This document shows positions 25,816 to 29,411 of a stretch of 64,000 bases of DNA, piece by piece (within the stretch, counting starts at the first letter, position 1; the number at the start of each line of letters is the position of its first letter). This DNA is from Candidatus Hydrogenedentota bacterium (lineage in GTDB: Bacteria > Hydrogenedentota > Hydrogenedentia > Hydrogenedentales > JAGMZX01), in contig JAKQEQ010000111.1 in NCBI GenBank assembly GCA_029556545.1, forward strand, positions 46,913-110,912. Reading direction: 5' to 3'. Under the pieces are notes generated by a model. The model was given only the letters and a program-made list of their open reading frames with translations. It was not told the origin of the DNA and did no database searches. The translations under genes were made by a program, and so were the position numbers.

Positions 25816-28023
25816 ATGGCCAAGAAAACCGCCACACAAACCGATGAGCTCGCCGTCCGGCGCGAAAAAGGCAAAATCTGGAGTCACATCCGCCGGAAAT
25901 GGCTGGTCGAGACGCCCGAAGAGCGCGTCCGCCAGGAATATCTTGTTCACCTTGTCGCGGAATACGGCTTTCAGCCTGATCAGATCGACGAGGAAAAGGA
26001 ACTGACCGGACGCGGCACCGGACGCGCGCGCGCCGATTTCGTCATCTGGCGCACGGTCCAAGACAAGGCCGACGGCAAATCGCCTCTCATCATCGTCGAG
26101 TGCAAATCCGACAACGTGACCATTCGGCCCGCAGACTACGCCCAAGGCGACAATTACGCCCGTATCATCAACGCTCCATTTTTCGTCACCCACAACACCC
26201 GCGAAACCCGCTTCTGGCGCGTCAAGAAGGACCGGATGCCCGGCTACATCGAGGAAATCGAGAACATCCCACACGCCGACGCCTCCGACAAGGAGATCGA
26301 GGAACTCATCGCCCGCCTGAAGGTCTTCAAGGAAGAGGAATTCGCGCAACTGCTCCACCAGTGCCACAACGTCATCCGCAACCGCGAGAAGCGCGACCCC
26401 GCCGCCGCCTTCGATGAGATCGCCAAGGTGCTGTTCGTCAAGGTCTGGGTCGAACGCGAGATGCGCCGCAAGCGCCAGCGCCAGAACCTCTTCACCGCCG
26501 ATTGGCTCGACTCACAGCTTGGCGACAACCCGCTGGATGTACTCTTCCAGCAAACAAAGCAAGAGTACAAGGAAGACCGCATCTTTGAGGATGGGGAATC
26601 GATTAACCTCAAACCCGCCACGGGCCGCGAGATCGTCCGGCTGCTCGAGAAGTACAATCTTTCCGACACAAGCGAGGATGTGAAAGGCATTGCCTTCGAG
26701 CGGTTTCTCGGGCGCACGTTTCGTGGCGAGATCGGCCAGTTCTTCACGCCGCGTACCATCGTCGAATTCATGGTCCGCATGGTGCAGCCGAAAGAGCGCG
26801 AAATCCTTTGCGACCCAGCGAGCGGATCGGGCGGCTTCCTCATTCGGTTCTTTGAACTCGTGCGGGAACAGATTCTCCAGGACGTGGACGCGGAGTATCA
26901 GACATACCGTGAGGAAATAGAGAAGAAGCGCATATCCAAGAGCCGCAAAGCGCAATCGCTGCGCAAGCGGTATGACGAATTGCAGAAGTCCATCGATCCT
27001 ACCGTCGAGAAGTCGCGCGTCTGGCGTTTGTCGAATACGTGCATCTACGGTACGGACGCCAATGACCGCATGGCCCGCACCAGCAAGATGAACATGATCA
27101 TGCACGGCGACGGCCACGGCGGCGTCCACCATCATGACGGCTTCATCAACGTCAACGGCATCTTCGAGGAACGCTTCGATATCGTGCTCACCAATCCCCC
27201 TTTCGGGGCGAACGTCGAGCCGTCCGATGTCATCCTCGAAAGCGATGTCGCCATCTCCACCGACGAATTCCGCCGCTATGTGCGGGAATACGGGGACCTG
27301 TACAAGGATGCCCAGGCCCGCATACAGGCAGCCAGGGGCAAACCCATTGCGTCCCTGTTTGACCTGCCCAAGGGCGAGAAGAGCAAGATCAAGACGGAAA
27401 TCCTCTTCATCGAGCGCTGCCTAGCGTTGCTCAAGCCCGGCGGGCGGCTCGGCATCGTCCTGCCCGAGGGCATCTTCAACAATCCTTCGCTGGCCTACGT
27501 TCGCGCCTTCTGCGAGGACCGCGCCTACATCCGCGCCGTCGTCAGCCTGCCGCAGGAGACCTTCTATTCCTCCGGCGCGTCGGTCAAGGCGTCGCTGCTC
27601 TTCATGCAGAAGTTCACGGAGGAAGAGAAAGCCCGCTACGACGCCGAGGCAGAGACGGCCCGCGCCGAGACCGAGGCGAAGTACGCCCCCGAGATCGAAG
27701 CCGAGACGCAGCGTCTCGAAGCGCTCATCGCCGAAGCCAATGCGAACAGGGACGCCGCCGCCCGCAAGGCCGCCCAAGCCGAATTGCGCGGCTATCTCAA
27801 GACGATGGACGACAAGCAGGCCGCCGAGGCCCGCGCCCTGCTCAAGGAGCGTTTCGACTACCCCGTCTTCCTCTACGAGGCCGAAAAGGTCGGCATCACC
27901 GCCACCGGCGAGGAAGACGCAAACGAACTCTATCCCAACCCGCGCGTTCCCGAGGGGATCGAACAGACCGCCCTCGACCTCTACCGCGAGTTCCAGAAGG
28001 AGCCAGAACCTTTTTTCGTCTGA
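25816..28023 (+). CDS. Restriction nuclease-methyltransferase (PD-(D/E)XK domain fused to an N6-adenine methylase, BcgI/type I-like)
   Basis: Predicted to both cut and methylate DNA with the following specificity subunit. Residues about 35-140 are an HsdR-N-like nuclease: ETPEERVRQEYL, then D74 in ARADFVIW and E95-x-K97 in LIIVECKSD. The methylase core has a helical domain (res 165-300), GQFFTPRTIVEFMV (307-320), motif I DPASGSGGFL (333-342) and motif IV NPPF (460-463). There is no helicase, so this is not classical HsdR. A coiled-coil segment follows (about 600-670). The 735-residue frame ends EPEPFFV at TGA 28021, right after a T TTT TTC heptamer (see 28011-28055). The ATG at 25816 has GAAGGA 6 nt upstream. 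Confidence 0.85.
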   Translation: MAKKTATQTDELAVRREKGKIWSHIRRKWLVETPEERVRQEYLVHLVAEYGFQPDQIDEEKELTGRGTGRARADFVIWRTVQDKADGKSPLIIVECKSDNVTIRPADYAQGDNYARIINAPFFVTHNTRETRFWRVKKDRMPGYIEEIENIPHADASDKEIEELIARLKVFKEEEFAQLLHQCHNVIRNREKRDPAAAFDEIAKVLFVKVWVEREMRRKRQRQNLFTADWLDSQLGDNPLDVLFQQTKQEYKEDRIFEDGESINLKPATGREIVRLLEKYNLSDTSEDVKGIAFERFLGRTFRGEIGQFFTPRTIVEFMVRMVQPKEREILCDPASGSGGFLIRFFELVREQILQDVDAEYQTYREEIEKKRISKSRKAQSLRKRYDELQKSIDPTVEKSRVWRLSNTCIYGTDANDRMARTSKMNMIMHGDGHGGVHHHDGFINVNGIFEERFDIVLTNPPFGANVEPSDVILESDVAISTDEFRRYVREYGDLYKDAQARIQAARGKPIASLFDLPKGEKSKIKTEILFIERCLALLKPGGRLGIVLPEGIFNNPSLAYVRAFCEDRAYIRAVVSLPQETFYSSGASVKASLLFMQKFTEEEKARYDAEAETARAETEAKYAPEIEAETQRLEALIAEANANRDAAARKAAQAELRGYLKTMDDKQAAEARALLKERFDYPVFLYEAEKVGITATGEEDANELYPNPRVPEGIEQTALDLYREFQKEPEPFFV

Positions 28024-28055
28024 GGCCCCGGGGCGACACCAAACGCATCGGGGCC
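28011..28055 (+). promoter_or_regulatory. Predicted programmed -1 frameshift signal joining the two restriction-modification frames
   Basis: In the reading frame of the nuclease-methylase the sequence is T TTT TTC (28011-28017), a canonical X XXY YYZ slippery heptamer. After a 6-nt spacer, GGCCCCG (28024-28030) and CGGGGCC (28049-28055) form a perfect 7-bp stem. A -1 slip avoids the TGA at 28021, and the new frame has no stop before the end of the specificity gene at 29411. The product would be 734 + 464 = 1,198 residues. Confidence 0.6.
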
Positions 28056-28076
28056 TTCGCGGTCCGGTTCAGTGAA

Positions 28077-29411
28077 ATGGAGAAATGGGATATTCAGGCC
28101 ACTCGCCTGAAGGCGCTCTTCCGGAGTGAATACCCGTTGGCTCGCTTGGCAGATTTGTTCTCGATAAGGCGGGAAAGAGCGACAGAGGAGCAGCTCGCCA
28201 CCGGTGCGGTATTGATGGTGGATCGTGTCAGTTTCGAAGGCGAGATATTCGCTGGCAGTAAAGCCGATACGAAAATGACACAGTATATTGGCAGGCAGGG
28301 AGACATTATAGTCTCAAAGATTCGTGCCCGTCAGGGATCCGTTGGGTATCTCGATCCGACGGTGTCCGGACAAAAGCCTGTCAGTGTTACAATCCACTAT
28401 CGTGTGCTTACTCCAAAGCATGATCGCATTGATGCAAGGTTCGCGTGGTTGGCGCTTCGCTCCGATTTCGGTAAGGCTAAATTCTTGGCTGCCACTGGTG
28501 GTGCTATGAAAGGCGAGATCAGCGAACATGCCTTGCTTGAGATGCAAATCCCCCTTCCGCCGTTGTCGGTGCAACGGGCGATTGTGGGGCGGTGGCGGAA
28601 GGCGCAGGAGACCATCGCGGCGGCCAACGAACGCATCGCCCGCATCGAGCACCAGACCCAGGCCCGCTTCCTCGCCGACCTCGGCCTGACCCTCCCCGAA
28701 CGCGCCACCCCGCCCAAAGCCTTCGCCCTCAAATGGCAAGACCTGGAACGGTGGTCGGTCATGTTCAATCAGATGGCCGCTACTGGTGTCGATGTCTCGG
28801 CGAGCAAGTACGGCGCGGTCCCGCTAAGCGAGTGTCTGCAAGGTACCATGAATGGCTATTGCATTCGCCCTGTCGGCACGAAAACGAAACACAAGATGCT
28901 GAAACTTAGCGCCCTTCGGCCAGAAGGACTCGACCTGACCGAAAGCAAGTATGTCAAGGTTCCAGAGAAGATCGCTAAGAGATTCCATATCAGCAAAGGT
29001 GACCTTCTCATCTGCCGAAGTGTGGGAAGCTTCGATCATATTGCGAAGTGTGCGCTGGTCGAAGAGGACCGCCCCGACATTCTGTTTCCCGACATTATTA
29101 TCCGGGCGCGATTCAACGATATGATTCTGCCGGAATACGCTGGAGCACTCATTCAGTCTCCAATCGGGCGGCTTTGGTTTCAGAAGAACGCTCGAACCGC
29201 CGTGGGCATGTGGAAAATAGGCGGAGGCGACATTGCGGGATTCCCGATCCCCCTCCCTCCGCTTTCGGTTCAGCGGGCTATCATGGAGCGGGTGGAGGCG
29301 GGGCGGGCGGAGATCGCCCGCGAGCGCGAGGCCGCAGACCGCCTGCGCCGCGAGACGCAAGCCGACGTGGAAGCGATGATCCTCGGCGCAAAGCCGGTCG
29401 CACGGAAATAA
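28077..29411 (+). CDS. Specificity (S) subunit with two target-recognition domains
   Basis: Type I HsdS-like protein that reads a bipartite DNA target. Two TRDs each end in the same motif, IPLPPLSVQRAI (residues 158-169 and 391-402), followed by a helical spacer (GRWRKAQETIAAANERIARI; ERVEAGRAEIAREREAADRL). TRD coding parts are AT-richer than the spacers, as expected from domain swapping. The first ATG (28077, MEKWDIQATRL) lacks a ribosome site. Translation of the 33 nt before it gives RIGAFAVRFSE, matching the segment before TRD2 (PPKAFALKWQDLERW), so the real protein starts upstream. No ATG, GTG or TTG exists in that stretch, which points to frameshift fusion with the preceding gene (or a CTG at 28020). 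Confidence 0.85.
   Translation: MEKWDIQATRLKALFRSEYPLARLADLFSIRRERATEEQLATGAVLMVDRVSFEGEIFAGSKADTKMTQYIGRQGDIIVSKIRARQGSVGYLDPTVSGQKPVSVTIHYRVLTPKHDRIDARFAWLALRSDFGKAKFLAATGGAMKGEISEHALLEMQIPLPPLSVQRAIVGRWRKAQETIAAANERIARIEHQTQARFLADLGLTLPERATPPKAFALKWQDLERWSVMFNQMAATGVDVSASKYGAVPLSECLQGTMNGYCIRPVGTKTKHKMLKLSALRPEGLDLTESKYVKVPEKIAKRFHISKGDLLICRSVGSFDHIAKCALVEEDRPDILFPDIIIRARFNDMILPEYAGALIQSPIGRLWFQKNARTAVGMWKIGGGDIAGFPIPLPPLSVQRAIMERVEAGRAEIAREREAADRLRRETQADVEAMILGAKPVARK

Follow-up and report, generated by a model that had tools for sequence, protein, structure and literature searches.

The window analysed here, a 64,000-nucleotide stretch of contig JAKQEQ010000111.1 from a Candidatus Hydrogenedentota bacterium, carries a gene for a nuclease-methylase (RM) that runs, in the -1 frame, into the reading frame of a specificity subunit (S). 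The two frames very probably constitute a single BcgI-like (Type IIB) restriction gene, the decoding of which depends on -1 programmed ribosomal frameshifting. Judged from sequence, the frameshift itself is strongly supported, since it is the sole reading that covers the loss of the S start, the in-phase slippery heptamer, the covarying hairpin at a fixed distance and the intact S frames that lack starts; the original prediction of such a frameshift joining RM and S is supported on the same four grounds. The features concerned are as follows, in window coordinates.

25816 to 28023, + strand: RM gene in the 0 frame, 735 aa, with an HsdR_N-type nuclease domain and an N6-adenine methylase.
27997 to 28002, + strand: Shine-Dalgarno (SD)-like AAGGAG, 8 nt 5' of the heptamer, at a location that fits stimulatory SDs; conserved in only some homologues.
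28011 to 28017, + strand: slippery heptamer T_TTT_TTC in the 0-frame phase, identical in homologous loci L004, L008, L041, L043, L049, L056, L061, L063 and L065.
28017 to 29411, + strand: S reading frame (-1), 464 codons after the shift, a type I-like specificity subunit.
28018 to 28023, + strand: 6-nt spacer GTC TGA with the 0-frame stop.
28024 to 28030, + strand: 5' arm of the predicted stimulatory hairpin, GGCCCCG.
28049 to 28055, + strand: 3' arm of the hairpin, CGGGGCC; all pairs are kept among homologues.
28077 to 28079, + strand: first ATG of the S frame, within the conserved motif AFAVRFSEMEKW.

The RM open reading frame (ORF), which ends CCT TTT TTC GTC TGA, combines a nuclease with an N6-adenine methylase, as in a Type IIB RM subunit (Pfam HSDR_N_2, 7e-22; N6_Mtase, 9e-35). 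It matches the PADLOC Type I MTase profile at 2e-232, and its nearest solved structure by sequence in the PDB is RM.BsaXI (2e-32). The Pfam matches of RM include no helicase, and the flanking ORFs, judged by eye with no library scan, are unlike HsdR. The S frame matches Pfam Methylase_S (5e-13), which scores the first half alone, and PADLOC Specificity_I over its full length (8e-48, residues 15-456). An internal repeat, AFAVRFSEMEKW and AFALKWQDLERW, accompanies this full-length match, as in an S subunit with two target recognition domains (TRDs). The nearest solved structures of S by sequence are EcoKI S and S.BsaXI. Because RM.BsaXI, EcoKI S and S.BsaXI are the closest structures, the enzyme appears to be a Type IIB system of the BcgI kind. 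RM and S lie in different frames here, whereas a single-chain Type IIB enzyme holds both in one reading frame. Elsewhere in the genome of the window, further Methylase_S genes are found (G000:C100:73925-74986 and G000:C101:9775-10266; L141, L142, L144), which means that it holds additional systems resembling Type I.

The -1 frame is open from 28017 to the TAA at 29409-29411, as originally claimed, and recomputation returned both the 735-residue RM ORF and the predicted fusion of 734 + 464 = 1198 residues. The S frame of the window contains no ATG, GTG or TTG between the upstream stop at 27360 and 28077, so the earlier claim that no start lies within 100 nt upstream was an understatement. Internal initiation far upstream was considered and ruled out, there being 220 codons without a start. 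The ATG at 28077 is too late as a natural start because it lies inside the conserved S motif. The downstream frame is therefore coding and lacks a start of its own, apart from a possible CTG at 28020.

Regarding the signal, the coordinates originally given for the in-phase heptamer, the 6-nt spacer with its TGA, the 7-bp stem and the 18-nt loop are correct throughout. The heptamer has the form X_XXY_YYZ, and of the heptamers found in insertion sequence elements, U_UUU_UUC is one of those with higher efficiency (PMC4066793). The hairpin is a perfect 7-bp G+C stem, to which A28023-U28056 could add one pair; its distance conforms to the rule that RNA structure begins about 5-8 nt downstream of the heptamer, and the spacing of stimulatory SDs in bacterial frameshift sites was taken from the same source (PMC4066793). 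Across both strands of the window (128 kb), TTTTTTC occurs twice, at 28011 and 45768, and a perfect stem of at least 7 bp at a spacing of 5-8 follows just 0.7-1.1% of window positions. Given the rarity of both, the window signal exceeds chance expectation.

The conservation of heptamer and structure was then followed among homologues. A scan of species genomes yielded 80 loci, among them 69 usable RM/S junctions; L018, L019, L071 and some more were excluded because their junctions were truncated or could not be read clearly. Most homologous S genes begin at ATGA, GTGA, TGATG or TAATG in the same -1 relation, an arrangement of start/stop coupling. Nine loci have no usable S start: the window, L004 (Sumerlaeota), L008 (Chloroflexi), L041 and L043 (Bacillota), L056 (Brevibacillus fortis), and L049, L061 and L063 (Verrucomicrobiota). 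In L043 the sole nearby GTG sits inside a conserved domain. The start-less S frames are intact, at about 430-450 codons. An in-phase TTTTTTC is present in 9/9 of these main-family junctions, and a heptamer in only 2/60 junctions that bear a start (TTTTTTC in L065, TTTTTTT in L035; Fisher 9.7e-10). As the loci are related, a kinship-aware test is fairer, and here the independent pairs stand at 6-7 to 0 (p about 0.016). The residue that precedes Phe-Phe may be P, L, S or R, yet in every case T is the last base of its codon and TTT TTC encodes Phe-Phe; this codon pattern is seen in 0/9 start-bearing homologues with Phe-Phe at that place. The original prediction had looked to homologues for a kept heptamer and stem. 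This held for every start-less junction of the main family, although most homologues use a separate S start. L065 (6262-6318) combines the TTTTTTC-hairpin signal with a GTGA start, so that S may be produced there in a fused and in a free form. L062 lacks the heptamer and keeps the hairpin, with T TTT CTC and an ATGA start, the pattern that a reversion or an intermediate would show. A search for more frameshift loci in about 1460 whole genomes from related groups added a few RM homologues, and those read had ordinary starts or were already known. Plasmid and phage collections yielded distant RMs alone, the exceptions being two A. caldus plasmids in which S is broken, and Rfam holds no family matching the signal.

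Analysis of the hairpin across the ten main-family loci that carry TTTTTTC demonstrates that it begins 6 nt 3' of the heptamer in nine of them and 7 nt in L008. Heptamer loci have stronger helices than the remaining homologues (p 2e-6). Among six loci aligned without gaps, 42/42 pair cells are standard and changes on both sides occur in 3/7 pairs; the covariation score is 0.59, compared with 0.155 when shuffled and at most 0.10 with the arm slid. For eight distinct arm pairs, including the second clade described below and L128, 56/56 pairs form against a mean of 39.8 on reassignment of the arms, and only 1 of 20,000 shuffles reached 56/56.

Several observations weigh against the frameshift and should be set beside this evidence. 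The fold energy of the window hairpin is unremarkable on its own in G+C-rich DNA (z -1.63), so the case rests on covariation and position among homologues, and coding (R/G-A-F-A-V) constrains part of the 3' arm. Junctions of the frameshift type are in the minority (10/69 of those scanned), and the near homologue L078 (79% identical) uses ATGA. Furthermore, in the window and L004 a CTG stands exactly at the ATGA position, where some separate S could be made. This last point leads to the explanation that survives best among the alternatives, improbable as it is: S would be made separately by coupled re-initiation at a CTG overlapping the RM stop (CTGA), with heptamer and stem incidental. Most homologues have ATGA or GTGA overlaps at the same place, which a CTG occupies in the window, in L004 and in the GGGTTTT clade. 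However, the corresponding triplet is CTA in L041, L043 and L056 and GTA in L008, L049, L061 and L063, with no usable ATG, GTG or TTG nearby; the window CTG has no SD at a proper distance (AAGGAG is 17 nt away), and a CTG start leaves the heptamer and covarying hairpin unexplained.

Transcriptional slippage on the T run, giving mixed mRNA of which part is in frame for the fusion, is less probable still. T runs can slip and the product would be the same fusion, yet six T is short for a process for which Tn with n>8 is quoted (PMC3711429), and the longest T run in the second clade is four (GGGTTTT). Such slippage would have no use for a hairpin kept at a constant distance, and all ten main loci share one phase and one direction. 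Least probable of all is that the sequencing or assembly is wrong at a homopolymer or that the gene has decayed. Homopolymers are error-prone and the window comes from a draft assembly (195 contigs), yet the same -1 relation, heptamer, hairpin and intact S frames recur in ten genomes that were sequenced separately, the isolate Brevibacillus fortis among them, and L004 has reached seven T by substitution (CTT TTT TTC) with the frame relation unchanged.

The predicted frameshift signal also finds a counterpart in a second clade, comprising the viral-collection loci L087, L090-L093/L109 and L096, the RM of which is about 40% identical. Here an in-phase GGGTTTT is followed by a 5-nt spacer and an 11-bp perfect stem, and the S frames have no start nearer than an ATG or GTG 61 nt upstream of the RM stop. 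The six loci are mutually close and count as about one observation. L094, a relative of this clade, has GGATTTT in place of the heptamer and a GTGA start, and L089 has an ATGATG start. On the A. caldus plasmid pLAtc3, the junction of L128 (5840-6359) displays AAATTTT and an 8-bp hairpin, the RM being followed by a truncated S and then by repeats resembling a CRISPR array; it is only suggestive as a further frameshift site, because its S is truncated. On plasmid pTcM1 of A. caldus, RM is followed by unrelated sequence (L130, 6340-6900).

In the RM protein tree, TTTTTTC loci fall on five separate branches; a tree with these loci in a single clade is rejected by the approximately unbiased (AU) test (AU p 3e-37), and at least six changes are required, with the reservation that this is a quick tree and that junctions exchanged between lineages could give the appearance of repeated gain. 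Repeated gain or loss of the frameshift signal is therefore likely. Read from these sequences, frameshifting is the arrangement of a minority of homologues and stands in for start/stop coupling on several branches. A natural fusion in a single frame also exists in L031 (4001-6870), where the RM frame runs on through an S-like domain that has a single apparent TRD, so that relatives display three solutions at one RM/S joint: overlapping start, frameshift and single-frame fusion. The GeneTack authors suggest that coupling and recoding are interchangeable (PMC3711429).

The proposed process may be described as follows. Ribosomes translating RM would reach U_UUU_UUC and pause there because of the hairpin that begins 6 nt further on. 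The P and A sites would then be occupied by UUU and UUC, and re-pairing one base back would be possible. The fraction that shifts would read through S to give the 1198-residue RM-S fusion, and unshifted ribosomes would terminate at the TGA to release the 735-residue RM. One message would in this way supply both RM and RM-S, the parts for a complex of RM with RM-S, the content of which would equal the (RM)2S of BcgI and BsaXI. The rate of slippage would then set the subunit ratio, no S would be made free of RM, and approximately half of the ribosomes shifting would produce a 1:1 mix of RM and RM-S. Slippage in this organism, and its frequency, are inferred. Assembly of RM with RM-S is a natural guess by analogy, because BcgI (PMC3874165) and BsaXI (PMC11997821) are both 2RM:1S, and an engineered EcoKI M-S fusion, which works in vivo, needs extra free M in vitro (PMC3510504). 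The original prediction saw the frameshift as regulation of S attachment; this is less likely than a supply of RM and RM-S at the ratio appropriate for 2RM:1S. On balance it appears probable, with less assurance than for the frameshift, that two things hold together: that the family repeatedly swaps coupling for a -1 signal, on several main-family branches and in a distant clade with another heptamer, and that the shift provides the RM/RM-S ratio for an enzyme of two RM and one S.

The signal lies at the joint between enzyme and specificity, where the switch between coupling and recoding can be traced on a tree, and it bears on the open question of Type IIB stoichiometry. Single-chain Type IIB enzymes pose a puzzle of 1RM:2TRD (PMC3874165); if true, the ratio reading would suggest how enzymes such as AloI could escape this imbalance. 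At such loci annotation pipelines may place the S start wrongly or call S truncated. The occurrence of the signal in relatives from several phyla points to a hitherto unreported means of balancing enzyme against recognition subunit. In the literature searched, which largely left subscription papers outside, frameshifting was not found reported for any restriction system, and priority is uncertain.

Comparison with known systems places the locus between several of them. As in BcgI and BsaXI, a nuclease-methylase RM is followed by a two-TRD S, here with no translocase gene evident alongside by eye, and there are sequence matches to RM.BsaXI and S.BsaXI; theirs are described as two separate polypeptides, whereas the start-less S here is predicted solely as a fusion. 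The predicted fusion resembles the single-chain Type IIB enzymes AloI, CjeI and TstI in holding nuclease, methylase and two TRDs in a chain of about 1200 aa, although those are described as the fusion alone and free RM is predicted here as well. The engineered EcoKI fusion likewise joins M to S at a natural overlap and is active, but it is a product of mutagenesis, while the present locus is predicted to make both forms naturally. Known -1 frameshifting in bacteria belongs mostly to mobile elements and to few cellular genes. Among the latter, dnaX uses a slippery heptamer, a hairpin and an upstream SD-like element to produce tau and gamma. The locus shares these three elements and the prospect of two products with a common N-terminus that could join one complex; slippage yields the shorter product in dnaX but would yield the longer one here, and both heptamer and gene are different. 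The recoding families of GeneTack also represent conserved frame transitions in bacterial genes, but the main text of that survey names no restriction system and the heptamers used are A-rich (PMC3711429). As far as can be seen, mechanism and enzyme class are each known, and their union is new.
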